Shown here: one piece after another, positions 11,371 to 20,826 of the stretch
Layout of the letters: each line of letters opens with the position of its first letter
How positions within the stretch are numbered: the stretch's first letter is position 1
DNA from: Defluviitaleaceae bacterium
GTDB lineage: Bacteria; Bacillota; Clostridia; Lachnospirales; WQUN01
Assembly (NCBI GenBank): GCA_009786685.1
Contig: WQRQ01000021.1
Coordinates: forward strand, 1-33,202
Reading direction: 5' to 3'
DNA: 33,202 nucleotides
Translations under genes and position numbers: made by a program
Notes under the pieces: model-generated
Told to the model about the DNA's origin: nothing
Database searches by the model: none
What the model saw: only the letters and a program-made list of their open reading frames with translations

Positions 11371-12081
11371 TTATACCAGCCTGTCTATCAGCATACCTGC
11401 TTCTATAAGGCTGTATCCGTCTGTTTCCATAGTACCCATGCGGTAGTTGTAGTGGTAGCTTAGCCCTCTAAAGCGCATATGCTCCACAAGTGGCTCGGTC
11501 ATTAGCTGCTGTGTATATGAACGAAGACCGTCAAAAAGCTCAATATTTTCGCCTATGGCTACGTTCATGGACTCGTGATTTAATCCCATCACATAGTCGC
11601 GGTCAAATGCCATGCTGCCTTCTTCCGAAATCGTTAGCCCAAGCATTTCCAAGCGGTTGCTGTTATGGTGTACATTTTCGATAACCTCGTCGGAGTACGA
11701 ACGCAAACCCGTACTATGCGATTGCGCCTGCATAAAACCCGCAGAACGATTATAGTTATCCGCAAATCTCCCAAGATTTTCTGCAATTTCGCCAAGGGCT
11801 TCGTCATAACCCTGTCTATGCACTTCGCCGTTGAAATTTTCCATCCCAATAGAAGTACGTTTTGTAGCGTCCTGCAATCCGGTAACACCATACGTAACAG
11901 ACTGCGCATAGTTAACAATCTCGTTGCGCAGTGCCTTGTTAAGCACAAAAACTCTGCCCGCAGACTCATTACCCTGTGCTATACGCGCCCGACGGGGTAC
12001 ATACCCTCCACGGTCGTTGTCACCGGCTTTGCCCACGATATAGGGCTTATACATATTGTAATAAAATACGCTTGTTAACAT
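11371..12081 (-). CDS. Probable flagellar-associated protein with FliD-like C-terminal segment
   Basis: The start is ATG 12081, 8 bases after GGAGG; an in-frame ATG at 12096 overlaps that site and is rejected. The product has 236 residues, soluble, without signal peptide or membrane helices. Residues about 50-165 look helical with many Asn and Gln. A stretch near 150-170 (LEMLGLTISEEGSMAFD) resembles the 'GI..d..G.L..d' segment near the C-terminus of filament-cap protein FliD. It is the first gene after the promoter at 12130 and precedes fliQ, so a part in flagellar assembly is likely. It is far shorter than FliD (about 450 or more), so it is not simply the cap. Family not recognised with confidence. 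Confidence 0.6.
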   Translation of the reverse strand: MLTSVFYYNMYKPYIVGKAGDNDRGGYVPRRARIAQGNESAGRVFVLNKALRNEIVNYAQSVTYGVTGLQDATKRTSIGMENFNGEVHRQGYDEALGEIAENLGRFADNYNRSAGFMQAQSHSTGLRSYSDEVIENVHHNSNRLEMLGLTISEEGSMAFDRDYVMGLNHESMNVAIGENIELFDGLRSYTQQLMTEPLVEHMRFRGLSYHYNYRMGTMETDGYSLIEAGMLIDRLV

Positions 12082-12129
12082 AATAATCGCCTCCATGGCT
12101 CACGAATAACGAGACTTCTCCTTGAAATT

Positions 12130-12158
12130 ATTATCGGCAAAAACCGCAAGTTTGTCAA
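12130..12158 (-). promoter_or_regulatory. Sigma-A-type promoter of the fliQ-fliR-flhB operon
   Basis: Read on the minus strand, a perfect TTGACA (12153-12158), a 17-base spacer and GATAAT (12130-12135, five of six matches to TATAAT) are present. Transcription would start near 12123, about 40 bases before ATG 12081. This is a housekeeping-type promoter rather than a sigma-28 flagellar one (TAAA-N15-GCCGATAA); GCCGATAA does overlap the -10, but no TAAA is placed correctly. Confidence 0.8.
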
Positions 12159-12304
12159 TAAGAAATTTTTTTCGCTATCCGCCGTGCGAAAATTGGTTTA
12201 CAATTCGGAAGTATGATTATAGCGAGAGGGAAAAATAAATTTTTCATTATTTATGGAACTAAATTGTTATAAATGTTGTTATTATTGATAGGAGGTGCTT
12301 AACT

Positions 12305-12940
12305 ATGAAAAAAGCATTTTTAATCGTAACAATTTTTTGCCTACTATTGGTATTTTTTGTGGGGTGCGAATATGAGCATGAGCAAAACGAACCACGCACA
12401 ACAGAAAATACTGACATGGAAATAATTAACATGGTAGATTTAGGGTGTTGCGTGAAAAATATTGTTGTTAGAGAAACAGCGTTAATTGGCGCGAATAGCG
12501 TTACGTATACCGGCAACTATTTTATTATAACGCTCAATTCTGATAAAAAAGTTTACTCCCCAACAGACATAATCTCAATATGGGGAACGCTTGAGTATAT
12601 CGGGGAAAATGATTCGATTGAAATATGGCATGGTTGCCCTTTCATACATTTTTTGGTTGAAGGTGGCATTTTCAACTTTGGGGGTGGGCAAAGGGATATT
12701 TTAGCCTCAAGCGTTTTGCAAAGAAACAGAGTTTATCATTTTGATTTTCATAAAAGCGGCGGTTGGAGTGCGGATGCTCCTGACGCTGAGTTTTGGGAAA
12801 ATTTCTTTAGAGAAGAAAACTTAATTTTACCCGCCGGGGAATATACAATAACTATAAAGGGTGCTTTTGGGCTAACTGAAAGAGTGCCGGATAATCCCAG
12901 TGGCTTAATGGCTAAATTAACCATTATAGTATGTTTTTAA
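12305..12940 (+). CDS. Lipoprotein of unknown function
   Basis: This 211-residue protein has a lipoprotein signal: MKK, a hydrophobic core and lipobox FFVGC with the lipidated cysteine at position 21. GGAGG at 12291-12295 precedes the ATG. The mature part is probably beta-rich, with KKVYSPTDIISIWGTLEYIG and a C-terminal PAGEYTITIKGAFG strand pair, a pattern reminiscent of BsuPI-like or Ig-like secreted domains. Two adjacent cysteines at 49-50 and one at 112 may matter. It lies 24 bases before an ABC exporter on the same strand. A possible extended -10 (TG-T-TATAAA, 12265-12273) lies upstream. No family assigned. Confidence 0.75.
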   Translation: MKKAFLIVTIFCLLLVFFVGCEYEHEQNEPRTTENTDMEIINMVDLGCCVKNIVVRETALIGANSVTYTGNYFIITLNSDKKVYSPTDIISIWGTLEYIGENDSIEIWHGCPFIHFLVEGGIFNFGGGQRDILASSVLQRNRVYHFDFHKSGGWSADAPDAEFWENFFREENLILPAGEYTITIKGAFGLTERVPDNPSGLMAKLTIIVCF

Positions 12941-12964
12941 AATTGTAAAGGGATTTGATTTGTA

Positions 12965-14566
12965 GTGAGCCATTTAAATAAAATAGCAAAAAAACACAAG
13001 ACTCTGATTGCCGTATTTTTTGCGGTGGGGCTGGTTACGTCTTTTTTGGCCGGCTTCGCGCCGAGGTATTTTCAGACGGTTGTGGACAGCTTTACGGACG
13101 GCAGTTTAACAATGACGCAGATTGCTATATATGGCGCGTCTTTGATTTTGATGTACATAATGTACTATGTGTATAATTATCCGTGGAGTAAGCTGGAGCA
13201 TGGTATCAGGATGTCCCTAAAGCTTGTCGCACTCCGAAAGGTGAGCGTGATTGACTACCTTTCCTATACAAAAATAGGCACGGGTACGCTAATCCAGCGC
13301 ATAGAAAACGGCGCGGCGGCGGGCGGAAATATTCTTTTTAATTTTTATTTGCACATCGTAAGTAATCTGCTCCCTGCGATGATTTTCAGCATGATTTTTG
13401 TATTCACAATCAATCGTACGGTTATGATTGCTATTTTGGTGGGCTATGTAGTCGTGTTTATTATCACAAATCTTCTGCTAAGAGCCTTGTACAAAGTTAA
13501 GGAGAATATCCTCGTAAACGAAGAAAAATTTAACCATTTTCTGGTGCGAGGTTTTATGGAAATGGTTGTGTTTCGTGTAAACCGTCGCTTTGGCTTCGAA
13601 ATTAAAAAGGCAGAAAATGCCTCGCAGGAAATAATATCGTCGTCTGTTAAAATGACAATGGTACATGAGGCATTTTTTACGATTTTTGCTGTGCTTATCG
13701 GATTTGTAAAAATCGGAATAATAATCTACGGTTGGACGGCGGACGCGCTGACAATCGGGCAGATAGTGGCGTTAATCGTGCTTGTGGACAACGCATACCA
13801 GCCGATAGCCATTTTTAATGTGCTGTACGTGCAGTTTAAGCTAGACAAAATCGCCTTTTCCCGCTACACGGAGTTTTTGGACGCAAAGGAAGATAATCGC
13901 CTAACCCACGGCAAAAACATATCGGGGTTTGGGGATATTACATTTGAAAACGTCGGATTTTACTATAACGACCGCGAGATTTTTAACGGCTTTAACCTAA
14001 ATATCAAGCAAAACGAAACAACTGCATTTATAGGCGAAAGCGGCTCGGGCAAATCCACCGCAATTAAAATGATAGCTGGCTTGCTACAACCCCACAACGG
14101 AAAAATAACAATAGGTGGCGTTGACATTGGACAAGTAAACCTCAACAGCCACTACGAAAACATCGCCTACCTCCCACAAGAGCCGGCTATTTTTGACGGC
14201 ACACTACGAGAAAACTTGGTCTTTGACGAGACAGTGGACGACACGGCCTTGCTGGCCGCGTTGGAAAAAGCAGGCCTCGGCGGCCTATACTCCAAGCTGG
14301 AAAAAGGCCTGGCCTCCCCCATGGGAGAAAGAGGCGTAAGCCTATCCGGCGGAGAACGTCAACAGCTTGCCCTAGCCCGTCTATGGTTTTCCGACGCCAA
14401 AATAATCATACTCGACGAAGCCACCTCCGCCATGGACAACCAAACAGAAGAATCCGTTATGAAAAACGTAATGCAGCTACTCCAAGGCAAAACGGTAATC
14501 GCGATTGCTCACCGCCTCGCTTCGATAAAATCATTTGACAATAAAATTATGTTTAAAGATTTGTAA
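12965..14566 (+). CDS. ABC exporter, fused membrane and ATPase domains
   Basis: The 533-residue half-transporter has six membrane helices (about 15-290) and an ATPase domain (about 330-533). ATPase motifs are Walker A GESGSGKST, Q-loop PQEPAIF, signature LSGGERQQ, Walker B IIILDEATSAMD and H-loop IAHR, all intact. It probably works as a homodimer. The start is GTG at 12965 with AAAGGG about 12 bases upstream. The membrane part is closest in style to peptide or bacteriocin exporters, but there is no C39 peptidase domain and no peptide precursor nearby. It may be co-transcribed with the lipoprotein. Codon choice shifts to C-rich after about 14000. Substrate unknown. Confidence 0.9.
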   Translation: MSHLNKIAKKHKTLIAVFFAVGLVTSFLAGFAPRYFQTVVDSFTDGSLTMTQIAIYGASLILMYIMYYVYNYPWSKLEHGIRMSLKLVALRKVSVIDYLSYTKIGTGTLIQRIENGAAAGGNILFNFYLHIVSNLLPAMIFSMIFVFTINRTVMIAILVGYVVVFIITNLLLRALYKVKENILVNEEKFNHFLVRGFMEMVVFRVNRRFGFEIKKAENASQEIISSSVKMTMVHEAFFTIFAVLIGFVKIGIIIYGWTADALTIGQIVALIVLVDNAYQPIAIFNVLYVQFKLDKIAFSRYTEFLDAKEDNRLTHGKNISGFGDITFENVGFYYNDREIFNGFNLNIKQNETTAFIGESGSGKSTAIKMIAGLLQPHNGKITIGGVDIGQVNLNSHYENIAYLPQEPAIFDGTLRENLVFDETVDDTALLAALEKAGLGGLYSKLEKGLASPMGERGVSLSGGERQQLALARLWFSDAKIIILDEATSAMDNQTEESVMKNVMQLLQGKTVIAIAHRLASIKSFDNKIMFKDL

Positions 14567-14739
14567 TAAGGCACACCCTAGTAGGCGAAACCGACCCATT
14601 TTACAGCAACAGCAATATACGTGTACTGCGACGGTCTATCGCCGACGCCGAAGCGGGGAAATTAGACGTAGATGTTTTGGATAAAAGCTGTCAATGCCGC
14701 ATAATCGCTGAATTGTTGTCTGGAGAACTGTCCCCTTGA
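14567..14739 (+). pseudogene. Remnant of a type II antitoxin C-terminus
   Basis: After the ABC exporter stop, one frame reads without a start codon: GETDPFYSNSNIRVLRR then SIADAEAGKLDVDVLDK (14584-14685), ending in TGA at 14737 inside the short repeat. 'DPFYS..N...L..SI...E.GK' is the C-terminal segment typical of RelB/DinJ-type antitoxins partnered with YoeB/RelE-like toxins. The N-terminal DNA-binding part and the toxin gene are missing, so this is a decayed fragment. The family is recalled from memory; an unrelated fragment is possible. Confidence 0.5.
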
Positions 14740-14743
14740 CAAC
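14723..14743 (+). repeat. Dispersed short repeat, copy 2
   Basis: GAGAACTGTCCCC, one variable base, then TGACAAC matches 4731-4751 with one mismatch and in the same orientation. It ends exactly one base before the stop codon of the Roc-COR gene and supplies the stop of the antitoxin remnant, so it marks a junction between unrelated sequences. Confidence 0.75.
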
Positions 14744-16927
14744 CTACATGAAATTTTTTCCAATCATTTCTGCAAATCCTTTGGCTGCTCCTTTAGATGC
14801 CGCCTCAACCATCAGGATTATAAACCTTGTGATTTTACCCCCTCTGTTTCGTTCTTCTGCTTGTGAGGTAAAGTTATATTGTATTAATAAGTCATTTATG
14901 AGGGCTTCTAGATTTTTTTGATATTCTACCTTTTTTTCTCCCCAAATGGTAATTTCTATCCGTCTGTTCTCTTTAAGCTCTACCAATGCGCTTGCGTTGC
15001 TTCCGCCCAAAACCATCCCCGTCTGCCACATAGACCACAACTCGCCGTTACGTTTTATGTCGGATTGGTTATTACATATAAATTTGTAAAAGAAGTCGGC
15101 AGGGAACTCCAAGAGGTCGTCTCGCTCTACTCTTGTAATAATATTATCCGGCTCCGGATTAATGTTTATGCCCGGAGGTTTTAGCTGCGAAGCGGCACAT
15201 GGTATTATTAATCCACGAATACCGCCGGGGTTTCTGAAGCCAATATTGTAGTAATCCATCAAATTAAAAATATGCTCGTAAGAATCCGTAGGATATGCAG
15301 AACGCTCATTTGCAAAAACAATATCAAGGTCATTGTAATTAATAAATGTAGTTTTGTTTTTTTGTAAATAATCAATAACCATATAAACCCCACGACTAAT
15401 CCAGCAGGGGTCTAATACATAATCGCCCATAAAGTCATAGCTTAGTGCTACGCCCAGCGTATTGAATAGTTTCGTTACTCGGTCATGGTCACTTTCTTCG
15501 ATGTTACTGTCTAATAAAATATTTTTGATTTTATCCGAATTCACGATTTGCTTATTTTGGTCAAAAAGAGCTTTTATTTCTTTCATCGCACCGCTGTCGT
15601 TTATGCCAAATACTTGGTGGCCTGTAGCCTCGATATAGTTTGCAAGTGCCGATTTGAAATTATTTACACTTTCTATGTCGTTGCCTATATTAAAGCTAAA
15701 AATATCATAAATAAGATTTCCAAACTCTCCGTTTTTAAAAGAGTTGTAATCTTCTTCATTTTGTCTACGGTCATCAGCTTCATTTATCACCATAAATACT
15801 TTTGCTTTATTATCCGAGTATACTCTTATCGTATCCAGCCAGTAGTTAATGCGAGTAATGTCGCGATTTTCTTCTGTCCTGGCGTTTACTACGAGGATGT
15901 ATATGCAGTTTTCAGTTAAAAAACATCTATGCGAAGAATGGTATATCACCTGTCCGCCAAAATCCCAAACACGGGATTTTATCCCATTGAGGTTTAATAC
16001 GCTTTGGGTATCTACACCATGCGTGGAGTCTCCCGGGGCAGGAAAACTATCGTCGTCATTTAGACGTCTTGTTAAAGTTGTCTTACCTGCACCAGCCGAG
16101 CCAAGAACAATTATTCGTGTCTCTCGCATTACACTGGTAGACCCTTGTCTCTCGAGGTTTTGCATATAGCTGGCGACAGCCGTAGCACCTTCATTGCGTA
16201 CTGCGTCAGGGATTTTAAGCCTATCATTAAGAGCCTTTATCGCATTATCATCTTGTTTAAAACTATTAATAAATAAATCATCATAAACATCAGCCCAATA
16301 TCCGCACCCTATGGCATACAAATCATTTTTGAAATTATCAAACAACGTTCCATAAATAGATGTATCGTTATTAAAACTGTTATAATTATCGGTTCTAATC
16401 ATTTCGATGTCATCAGAAATTATATCTATGAACTTCTGAAAAAAATTTTCGGGATAATGCTTTTGGCTGTTATTTTCGTAGGCGGCATAAGCAGCTCTGG
16501 CAGCAGAGTAGGCAGAGGCGTATGCGGCGTAAGCGTATGCGGCGGTAGCGTAAGCATATGTGTTGGCGGCATAAGCGGCGTCGGCGTATGCGTCGTAAGC
16601 ATAAGCGGCGGCGTCGGCGGCATAAGCGGCGGCGGCGTATGCGGCGTCGGCGGCGGCGATGGCGTCGGTTTTGGTGGAAACGTAATTATTATAGGCAATG
16701 AAGGAGGCTTCACTCAAGACATGAGGATTTGAACTATCGCAGACATAAAAGATTGATTGTAAATGTTGCTTGATTTCACTTTTTTTCCAACATTTAAAAT
16801 ATCTCTTTACATTTAAAAAAGGCAATGCCCTAACGGCGCAAAGCCAAGAAAAGAACCATCGCTTTTCCGGTGCTAATTGCTCAGCCTTTATTTTAATATC
16901 ATCGTAAAAACTTATATTGCCATACAT
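14744..16927 (-). CDS. Roc-COR GTPase with N-terminal Ala/Tyr-rich helical domain
   Basis: The start is ATG 16927 behind GGAAGGG (727 residues); a GTG at 16945 overlaps that site. Residues 1-88 contain a Trp-rich helical stretch (KRWFFSWLCAVRALPF). Residues about 89-151 are almost only Ala and Tyr with scattered Asp. Residues 160-260 are acidic and helical. The GTPase domain follows: P-loop GSAGAGKTT (276-284), switch II DFGGQ (322-326), and G4 NEAD (382-385), where NKxD is usual. A COR-like dimerisation domain (YVLDPCWISRGVYMVIDYL region) continues to about 640. There are no leucine-rich repeats and no kinase. Bacterial Roc-COR proteins are dimeric GTPases of mostly unknown role. Similar Ala/Tyr helices occur in predicted immunity proteins (recalled). 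A role in conflict or signalling is inference. Confidence 0.85.
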   Translation of the reverse strand: MYGNISFYDDIKIKAEQLAPEKRWFFSWLCAVRALPFLNVKRYFKCWKKSEIKQHLQSIFYVCDSSNPHVLSEASFIAYNNYVSTKTDAIAAADAAYAAAAYAADAAAYAYDAYADAAYAANTYAYATAAYAYAAYASAYSAARAAYAAYENNSQKHYPENFFQKFIDIISDDIEMIRTDNYNSFNNDTSIYGTLFDNFKNDLYAIGCGYWADVYDDLFINSFKQDDNAIKALNDRLKIPDAVRNEGATAVASYMQNLERQGSTSVMRETRIIVLGSAGAGKTTLTRRLNDDDSFPAPGDSTHGVDTQSVLNLNGIKSRVWDFGGQVIYHSSHRCFLTENCIYILVVNARTEENRDITRINYWLDTIRVYSDNKAKVFMVINEADDRRQNEEDYNSFKNGEFGNLIYDIFSFNIGNDIESVNNFKSALANYIEATGHQVFGINDSGAMKEIKALFDQNKQIVNSDKIKNILLDSNIEESDHDRVTKLFNTLGVALSYDFMGDYVLDPCWISRGVYMVIDYLQKNKTTFINYNDLDIVFANERSAYPTDSYEHIFNLMDYYNIGFRNPGGIRGLIIPCAASQLKPPGININPEPDNIITRVERDDLLEFPADFFYKFICNNQSDIKRNGELWSMWQTGMVLGGSNASALVELKENRRIEITIWGEKKVEYQKNLEALINDLLIQYNFTSQAEERNRGGKITRFIILMVEAASKGAAKGFAEMIGKNFM
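16475..16663 (-). repeat. Degenerate tandem GCN/TAY tract encoding the Ala/Tyr segment
   Basis: About 190 bases consist almost entirely of GCN and TAY codons in irregular units of 6-15 bases. Codons for the same residue vary, so the tract looks selected at protein level rather than freshly expanded. It lies wholly inside the Roc-COR gene. Confidence 0.85.
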
Positions 16928-16971
16928 TTTACCAACCCTTCCCACTCCACTCCTTGATTTACTACCCCTAC

Positions 16972-16999
16972 ATCATACCTAAAAAATACCAACATGCAA
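16972..16999 (-). promoter_or_regulatory. Candidate promoter of the Roc-COR GTPase gene
   Basis: On the minus strand TTGCAT (16994-16999), a 16-base spacer and TATGAT (16972-16977) are seen about 45 bases before ATG 16927. Moderate match to the sigma-A consensus. Confidence 0.45.
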
Positions 17000-17056
17000 C
17001 ACATTGCGACACAAAACCCAATACATAATTAATTTTTTCCTGCGCAAACTAAACCC

Positions 17057-17410
17057 ATGAAAAATCTAAAAATCATCCCCATAGGCCTTATCGTAGGCTT
17101 TGCAAACGGGCTTTTCGGCGCGGGGGGCGGAAGTATCCTTGTGCCGGCCTTGCAAAAATTTATGAGCATGGAGACTAAAAAATCCCATGCCACCACGCTT
17201 GCGGTTATTTTGCCGCTGTCCATTATAAGTGCCGCGATATACATTTGGGGCGTGGACGTGGAGTGGAAGGTCGTGCTTTTTGTGTCCCTTGGCGGCGTCA
17301 CGGGCGGTCTTATCGGAGCGCATATTTTAAATAAGCTTGCGGCTTGGTGGTTAAATATTTTGTTTGGCCTATTCCTCGCTGCGGGCGCAATTAGGATGTT
17401 ATTTGCATGA
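17057..17410 (+). CDS. TauE/SafE-family membrane protein, N-terminal-type half
   Basis: This 117-residue protein has four membrane helices and the family signature GFANGLFGAGGGSILVPAL. Full TauE/SafE (DUF81) anion exporters have two such repeats in about 250 residues; here each repeat is a separate gene. The next gene encodes the second repeat and overlaps by 4 bases (ATGA), so the two halves probably assemble together to move sulfite, sulfoacetate or another organic anion. No Shine-Dalgarno motif precedes the ATG (CTAAACCC is immediately upstream), so initiation may be weak or from a short leader. Confidence 0.88.
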   Translation: MKNLKIIPIGLIVGFANGLFGAGGGSILVPALQKFMSMETKKSHATTLAVILPLSIISAAIYIWGVDVEWKVVLFVSLGGVTGGLIGAHILNKLAAWWLNILFGLFLAAGAIRMLFA

Positions 17411-17793
17411 GTATCTTCTGGTATGTACTTGTGGGGCTGTTGTCGGGGATTGTCAGCGGTATGGGAATCGGCGGCGGTGCGATTCTTATACCCGCGCTTA
17501 CGCTTTTTATGGACATCGGCCAGCAGAAGGCGCAGAATATCAACCTTTTATACTTTATCCCCACGGCGATAATCGCGCTTTTTGTTCACAAAAAAAATAA
17601 TAATATCGAAAAAAAAGGCCTGCTGCCACTAATTCTATGGGCATTGCCCGGTGCGGTGGCGGGCGCAATCATCGCGGTAAATATCGATGCAAACTACCTA
17701 CGCAAAGGCTTTGCGATTTTCCTGCTTTGTATGGCAGTTTACGAACTATGGAAGGGGTTTTCCAAATGGAAATCACAGCGTTCGAACGCTTAA
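17407..17793 (+). CDS. TauE/SafE-family membrane protein, second half
   Basis: The 128-residue protein has four membrane helices and a signature parallel to its partner: GIVSGMGIGGGAILIPAL. It overlaps the preceding half gene by ATGA, giving near-equal synthesis of the two. Together they equal one full TauE/SafE transporter. A charged loop, HKKNNNIEKK, separates helices 2 and 3. Split TauE pairs are common in Clostridia, so the pair is probably functional and not a broken gene. Substrate unknown. Confidence 0.9.
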   Translation: MSIFWYVLVGLLSGIVSGMGIGGGAILIPALTLFMDIGQQKAQNINLLYFIPTAIIALFVHKKNNNIEKKGLLPLILWALPGAVAGAIIAVNIDANYLRKGFAIFLLCMAVYELWKGFSKWKSQRSNA

Positions 17794-20203: not shown

Positions 20204-20449
20204 ATGATTATTGATACAAGTACCATGGTTCCGATGACAGAAGCTAATCAAAATTTTTCAAAGGTAGCACGTTTGGTAGATGAAAAAGGGTCGGCAATTA
20301 TTATGAAAAATAATAAGCCGAGGTATACCGTCCTTGACTTTGACGAGTATGCGAAAAGGCAAGAAGCAGACAGAAGCGAAATGTTTGAATCTATTGTTGA
20401 CACTCTAATTGATGAAAACATGGAAGCATTTTTGGAGCTTGCAAAATGA
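20204..20449 (+). CDS. phd: Phd/YefM-family antitoxin
   Basis: The 81-residue protein has the Phd/YefM N-terminal DNA-binding fold (MVPMTEANQNFSKVARLVDE, then IIMKNNKPRYTVLDFDEY) and an acidic helical C-terminal tail (residues about 55-81) that would bind and block the toxin. It overlaps the toxin gene by 4 bases (ATGA), the usual antitoxin-first arrangement. It neutralises Doc and represses its own operon together with it. The gene sits between the ABC exporter (divergent) and a convergent acetyltransferase gene. Confidence 0.93.
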   Translation: MIIDTSTMVPMTEANQNFSKVARLVDEKGSAIIMKNNKPRYTVLDFDEYAKRQEADRSEMFESIVDTLIDENMEAFLELAK

Positions 20450-20826
20450 ACAAATTAACAATAGAACGAGTTATAGTAATGCATAAAAAATTGATTGCCA
20501 CATCAGGGGGCGACCCCGGGATTCGTGATTTTGGTTTGCTTGAATCGGCGGTGCTTGGGTGCTATCAGTCATTTAATGGGCAAGAATTGTATCCCACCGT
20601 TATAGAAAAGGCGGCACGTATGGCATATGCCATTAATAAAAACCACGCACTTGTTGATGGCAATAAACGCACGGCTGTTTTGTCTATGCTAACCATTTTG
20701 CGTATGCATAATATTGGCATATCATACACCCAACAAGAACTCATTGAACTGGGTTTTGGCATAGCAGACGGCAGTTTGGGTTACGACGAAATCCTTGCAT
20801 GGATTAACGCGCATTTAACCTCTTAA
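20446..20826 (+). CDS. doc: Doc-type (Fic-fold) toxin
   Basis: This 126-residue protein has the Doc motif HALVDGNKRTA (67-77), matching HxFxDxNKRTA except Leu for Phe at the third position. Doc kinases inactivate elongation factor EF-Tu by phosphorylation, which arrests translation. Other conserved Doc positions are visible, such as GGDPGIRDFGLLESAV near residues 21-36. It is translationally coupled to phd. The catalytic His, Asp, Asn and Lys/Arg are present, so activity is expected. Length is usual. Confidence 0.93.
   Translation: MNKLTIERVIVMHKKLIATSGGDPGIRDFGLLESAVLGCYQSFNGQELYPTVIEKAARMAYAINKNHALVDGNKRTAVLSMLTILRMHNIGISYTQQELIELGFGIADGSLGYDEILAWINAHLTS

Follow-up and report, generated by a model that had tools for sequence, protein, structure and literature searches.

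What is a Roco-type GTPase doing with an alanine- and tyrosine-rich helical domain in the place of its leucine-rich repeats (LRR)? LRRK2 is the GTPase switch of Parkinson's disease, and prokaryotic Rocos serve as its structural models, though the role of the prokaryotic proteins themselves is still open. Here, we analyse a 33,202-nucleotide stretch of DNA (the window) from a Defluviitaleaceae bacterium, in which an intact open reading frame on the reverse strand (14744..16927, with an ATG start at 16927 and an alternative GTG at 16945) encodes a 727-residue protein made up of an N-terminal domain (NTD), a Roc GTPase domain and a COR domain. We tentatively propose, at somewhat less than an even chance, that this protein works on its own as an NLR-like receptor built on the Roco plan, whose purpose would be defence or inter-microbial conflict.

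The switch part of the protein is readily classified. Roc (residues 271-385; 15773..16117, reverse strand; Pfam E 1.8e-18), COR-A (residues 456-576; 15200..15562, reverse strand; E 1.2e-11) and COR-B (residues 608-682; 14882..15106, reverse strand; E 3.2e-7) each exceed the Pfam cut-off, and Roc directly precedes COR. The original prediction of a Roc-COR protein without LRR or kinase is borne out, as Pfam finds neither: the NTD occupies the LRR position, and just 42 residues extend beyond the Roc-COR match. The motifs are also as predicted, with G1 (GSAGAGKTT, residues 276-284) and G3 (DFGGQ, within WDFGGQ at 321-326) intact, and with G4 reading NEAD (in INEADD), in which NxxD is kept and Lys is replaced by Glu. 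With this order of domains and these motifs, the protein is a Roco. The G4 Asn is invariant across 19 aligned proteins; the Lys position is variable, being replaced in most relatives, and since the entire sister group has Glu there (NE[AS]D), the change is a feature of the clade and not decay. In the AF2 model of the whole protein, Roc-COR superposes on the Chlorobium tepidum Roco (Z 29.6, 388 residues) and also on LRRK2, and by sequence the closest solved proteins are Methanosarcina barkeri Roco2 (2e-28) and then C. tepidum Roco (E about 1e-24). The 42-residue C-terminal tail (14747..14872, reverse strand) is common to the nearest Roc-CORs and is a possible amphipathic helix of low AF2 confidence, its hydrophobic moment against shuffles (P 0.085) being suggestive and not significant. 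Other relatives end in TM helices or short helical tails, and searching the C-terminal tails against Pfam gave no confident match. The host genome encodes a second Roco (G000:C51; L028, 2120-5908), a classical LRR-Roc-COR protein whose LRR repeats are nearly identical to one another and whose helical C-terminal tail is preceded by a Gly/Asn-rich stretch.

The NTD itself (residues 1-247; 16187..16927, reverse strand) is predicted to be all-helical (AF2 pLDDT 81, pTM 0.81). Residues 1-247 are homologous across all NTD relatives, with the consensus order FxWLCAVRALPF, an HLxSIFxxxD helix, an Ala-rich tract and SxYGxxxxNFxxxLxxxxCxYWxxxYxxxFxxxF. Motif 1 (residues 26-37, FSWLCAVRALPF; 16817..16852, reverse strand) carries F26, C30, R33, L35 and P36, invariant in n = 26 sequences, and motif 2 (residues 189-223, the SIYGTLFDNFKNDLYAIGCGYWADVYDDLFINSF region; 16259..16363, reverse strand) the invariant Y192, L203, C208, Y210, W211 and Y215. 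A Trp-rich segment had been described ahead of the tract; W24, W28 and W47 are indeed present, but three tryptophans are scarcely "rich". Each Pfam family hits at most one of the 26 members, and none credibly, while a search of PDB sequences with the NTD profile returned poly-Ala noise only. On these sequence comparisons, we consider the NTD to be a domain without a Pfam family, bearing invariant motifs on either side of the tract, and we know of no prior description of it in Pfam or the open-access literature.

Could the Ala/Tyr tract (residues 86-152; 16472..16672, reverse strand) be a functionless low-complexity run, made by slippage in a plain Roco? The DNA beneath it consists of degenerate 51-bp tandem repeats with a GC content of 62%, against 37% (37.4%) for the remainder of the gene, and the length between two fixed anchors varies from 49 to 118 among relatives, all of which would suit such an origin. 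Against it, the region between these anchors is Ala-rich (20-43%) in 25 of 26 sequences, with Gly and Pro nearly absent, it lies always between the same motifs, and it is predicted with moderate confidence to form three Ala-rich helices (86-102, 106-123 and 128-152 in the AF2 model), although it is here that confidence in the NTD model is lowest (ten-residue blocks 49-88). We regard a functionless run as highly improbable. As the DNA is built of degenerate repeats, the tract probably grew by duplication, yet was kept as helix. Its composition (37 Ala and 14 Tyr among the 70 residues 86-155) agrees with the original prediction, for which absence of the Ala/Tyr region from relatives would have counted as contrary evidence; nearly all relatives are Ala-rich. 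An antisense Gly/Val-rich open frame (16457-16732, forward strand) is a by-product of the Ala/Tyr codons.

Does the NTD resemble a known fold? A likeness between its Ala-rich tract and predicted immunity proteins had been suggested. Foldseek with the NTD model found nothing significant in the PDB (E > 1). In VIA-align, the DUF416 protein 2q9r ranks clearly first (Z 10.4, 165 aligned residues, 4.0 A, 8% identity; next Z 5.2), on a scale where helical bundles may reach a Z of about 13 by chance. Foldseek against viral models returned a phage protein labelled "Imm-5-like domain" (TM 0.39/0.44, probability 0.2, E > 1) and the unnamed protein A0A516MPQ3 at probability 0.93. Profile-profile alignment (hhalign) of the NTD with DUF416 gave P 0.014 and placed the invariant R33/P36 on the invariant R28/P31 of DUF416. 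The global profile score of the NTD against Imm5_like (PF21805) was 16.2, compared with a maximum of 10.0 in 100 block-shuffles and 7.6 for the reversed profile, and the DUF416 score passed the shuffles locally (1 of 100 as high) and not globally. At curated HMMER cut-offs, Imm5 (PF14423), Imm5_like and DUF416 (PF04222) leave the window gene unmatched, as do Imm5 and DUF416 when run over its own genome and class, and the Imm5 and Imm5_like profiles match nothing in that genome or in the NTD set. We accordingly do not assign the NTD to Imm5, Imm5_like or DUF416. The suggested likeness finds support at the level of fold and of shuffled profiles, but not at curated thresholds, and the NTD is probably a distant relative of the Imm5-like kind of bundle lying below the family cut-offs.

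A special case of the receptor model follows this resemblance further: the NTD might be a captured immunity-protein fold acting as toxin bait, with the GTPase firing once the fold is engaged by an incoming toxin or phage protein of the sort to which an immunity protein would bind. The Imm5_like and 2q9r scores and the weak Foldseek match to the phage protein favour this, as does the rapid divergence and exchange of the NTD described below. It is countered by the unmatched Pfam families, by Foldseek E-values above 1, by the ease with which helical bundles match each other, and by the lack of any recognised polymorphic toxin gene near the window gene or among the homologue neighbours scanned, and we consider it decidedly unlikely. 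In genome G280, true Imm5 genes do follow HINT-type polymorphic-toxin-like genes.

Where else does the NTD occur? A motif scan of 84,980 prokaryotic genomes (GTDB-220 species) found 26 loci encoding it, a lower bound given the strictness of the motif. At least 18 of the 26 come from termite-gut MAGs with the sample codes Lab288, Emb289 and Co191, which denote the termites Labiotermes labralis, Embiratermes neotenicus and Cornitermes sp. (PMC7024585). Among the hosts are Bacillota, Bacteroidota, Fibrobacterota, Planctomycetota, a coriobacterium, Bathycorpusculum and a Nitrososphaerota archaeon. The NTD is carried by 6 of 38 genomes in the family to which the window belongs and by 1 of 391 in the class sample; viral contigs, phage records and plasmids yielded none, plasmid matches covering Roc-COR only. 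The window's host is likely a gut bacterium of termite-gut origin. At one locus (L038, 542-2755) the Roc-COR frame is broken between Roc and COR by a stop or frameshift, and in the coriobacterium an NTD-only ORF (L054, 4252-10318) lies near a Hen1/Pnkp RNA-repair cassette.

The NTD and the switch have separate histories. A clade with 100/100 support and a long stem unites the window protein with L030, L046, L047 (archaeal) and L051 in the Roc-COR tree. The same five are scattered in the NTD tree, where a single clade is rejected (p-AU 0.0009, at a cost of 41 log units) for a group drawn up from the Roc-COR tree and from Roc motifs held in common, the NTD tree being already known at the time of the test. 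The archaeal protein illustrates this well: its Roc-COR is 58-62% identical to those of the window protein, L030 and L046, while its NTD is 50-53% identical to archaeal-type proteins whose Roc-COR is just 27-30% identical. The terminal branches of the NTD tree exceed those of the Roc-COR tree about threefold in length (median 0.85 vs 0.27). Because the two trees are discordant, we conclude from the sequences that the NTD is exchanged between Roc-COR backbones. Mis-binning of MAGs may distort host labels, but not this discordance, since both domains lie in one polypeptide.

A block of about 5 kb (12097..17056), containing a lipoprotein gene, an ABC transporter, an antitoxin-like fragment and the NTD-Roc-COR gene, is absent in three congeners, in which its two flanking genes (one at 11371-12096, where a flagellar-type cluster ends, and TauE at 17057) adjoin directly, with gaps of 113, 122 and 384 bp; hence the block is accessory. 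Its GC content is 40.8%, compared with 46-47% in the flanks, and it has perhaps arisen from more than one insertion. The predicted accessory location is thereby upheld, and the homologues are patchy and cross phyla. Two smaller details fared less well: the supposed antitoxin remnant is a 56-codon open stretch (14569-14739, forward strand; DPFYSNSNIRVLRRSIADAEAGK...) that is present but has no Pfam match, and no short repeat of a distinct, mobile kind was found where one had been reported. The window does carry a complete toxin-antitoxin pair of the Phd/YefM-Doc type, at a distance of 3.3 kb (20204-20826). The TauE/SafE transporter (17057-17793) consists of two adjacent half-genes in reversed domain order, with the same halves in the same order in eight congeners.

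Among the other loci, one relative (L051) adjoins a large serine recombinase, and most have housekeeping neighbours or isolated mobile genes, the housekeeping neighbours that are shared being coincidental. Conserved housekeeping neighbourhoods, which would have spoken against a conflict role, did not appear, since the neighbourhoods are not conserved. Nor do the homologues generally lie in defence islands: around the 26 loci there is no conserved gene partner or defence island apart from kwa-like genes, so that recognisable defence genes (Kiwa-like) occur at two loci only, and the PADLOC anti-phage models do not match the window protein. Might it then be an ordinary cell-signalling Roco, serving polarity, envelope or stress regulation, with its exchange reflecting general gene transfer in the gut? 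Mostly housekeeping neighbours and unmatched defence models are what this reading expects. The sparse accessory spread over phyla and two domains of life, the empty sites in congeners, the exchange of an N-terminal module and the fusions to NACHT, nuclease-like and WD40 regions beside kwa-like genes would all be unusual for a housekeeping regulator, however, and we think this reading unlikely.

These fusions bear on a further check that had been suggested, a search for the same N-terminal domain with other effectors: it is a recurrent module and occurs with NACHT, WD40, a PD-(D/E)xK-like nuclease stretch and a second Roc-COR (L032, NTD-Roc-COR-Roc-COR). The largest is a 3378-residue frame with two NTDs (L031, 2038-12171), in the order NTD, NACHT-like ATPase, pentapeptide-like stretch, WD40, PEP-synthase-like domain (3.4e-77), NTD, Roc-COR, nuclease-like stretch, NACHT and pentapeptides, where the nuclease-like call rests on a GFD..ECK motif and the first NACHT on Walker motifs read by eye; its WD40 repeats match a WD40 protein (E 1.6e-164) and also Apaf-1. 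An archaeal bin from another termite sample (L035, 88-7551) encodes WD40-like repeats, PPDK_N, three NTDs, an Mrr-like stretch and NACHT, the nuclease-like (PD-(D/E)xK-like) stretch matching Mrr_cat at E 0.013 only and carrying the GFD..ECK motif. A PDB sequence search with the nuclease-like stretches of both proteins and the first NACHT region of L031 gave no match. KwaA and KwaB are the two genes of the Kiwa anti-phage system, and after each giant come two genes recognised by the PADLOC models, one KwaB-like (E about 5e-7) and one KwaA-like (E 1.5e-12 and 3.3e-16); the giants are possibly an extended Kiwa-associated system. Elsewhere, the C-terminal domain of L048 and L049 matches residues 1016-1105 of C. 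tepidum Roco (E 1.1e-6 for L049), so that here the NTD replaces the LRR on a Chlorobium-type backbone. At L053, a Fic-domain gene with a winged helix (12366-13772) lies directly 3' of the NTD-Roc-COR gene.

The giants also bring in the main rival to the receptor model. In NACHT/WD40 proteins, the N-terminal domain is usually an adaptor or effector and the C-terminal repeats sense, a convention that a sensor NTD fits poorly. The NTD could instead be an adaptor or assembly domain (like EADs, the death fold and other N-terminal NLR domains) that self-associates after the NTPase switch has fired, with sensing left to WD40 or the tail. EADs (effector-associated domains) are small domains, helical for the most part, that are found linked to effectors and core NTPase systems (PMC7159879). 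Consistent with this are the all-helical AF2 model, the tandem copies within one protein (three in L035, two in L031), the position N-terminal to NACHT with C-terminal WD40 in L031, and the NTD-only ORF. Yet no second NTD gene lies within the flanks (up to 10 kb) of any locus, repeat copies occurring only inside one polypeptide, whereas EADs typically come in paired genes; divergence and swapping are faster in the NTD than in the switch; and NTD-Roc-COR proteins are left with no other sensor domain once the NTD is set aside. We rate an adaptor NTD as possible, although doubtful.

How might a receptor of the Roco type work? Roc-COR is established as a GTP-regulated dimer switch in C. tepidum Roco. 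In the proposed receptor, the NTD in place of the LRR would be an exchangeable interaction module engaging a cue, most likely a protein from a phage or a competitor; Roc-COR would act as a GTP-dependent dimerisation switch; and output or membrane placement would fall to the short tail at the C-terminus, which in relatives is helical, TM or CtRoco-like. The proposal draws on features that the sequences themselves show: the order of the domains, the conserved motifs of NTD and switch, the exchange of the NTD, the placement of the gene in an accessory block, and the reappearance of the NTD in NACHT/WD40 proteins beside kwa-like genes. Besides the NACHT/WD40 convention, the mostly housekeeping neighbours, the lack of a conserved partner, of a PADLOC model and of viral or phage copies, and an Imm5-like/DUF416 resemblance below thresholds count against it.

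An LRR-replacing domain that hops between switches yields a testable hypothesis, that Roco GTPases are NLR-like immune switches in prokaryotes. The NTD is absent from Pfam and, among the genomes scanned, concentrated in termite-gut microbes; the termite gut is a dense community, in which transfer between bacteria and archaea is traceable. In the boldest form of the hypothesis, which we think unlikely, a helical domain resembling immunity proteins would serve as built-in bait and pass between Roco GTPases and NACHT ATPases in the bacteria and archaea of termite guts, making prokaryotic Rocos, the ancestral type of LRRK2, intracellular immune sensors of a new receptor class.

How does this compare with known systems? 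A search of the open-access literature turned up no paper that links Roc-COR to anti-phage defence demonstrated by experiment. Roco-type AP-GTPases are rare parts of multicellularity-linked conflict systems, and those of the EAD/VMAP systems share with the window protein a Roc-type GTPase in a modular prokaryotic conflict protein and the logic of an NTPase switch (PMC7159879). Unlike them, the window protein is without a recognised vWA, MoxR or VMAP partner, and its NTD is encoded in a single gene, is not paired and has no Pfam model. The Imm5_like and DUF416/YjaG families, whose bundle of helices, with an early C..R..LP-type helix and inner helices rich in Ala, the NTD appears to share, stand alone, whereas the NTD is far richer in Ala/Tyr and is joined to GTPase or NACHT. 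The ROCOs of brown algae have been put forward as immune receptors, and they likewise join a Roc-COR switch to a diversifying recognition part (PMC11378527), although their diversity comes from LRR exon shuffling and that of NTD-Roc-COR from domain exchange. M. barkeri Roco2 (PDB 4wnr), the closest solved Roc-COR by sequence, was solved as a Roc-COR construct only and has no known NTD. C. tepidum Roco (LRR-Roc-COR; PDB 6hlu, 8r4b) is alike in Roc-COR fold and sequence, and its C-terminal domain is present in some NTD relatives; the window protein differs from it in having the NTD for the LRR, NE[AS]D at G4 and a short tail for the CtRoco C-terminal domain.
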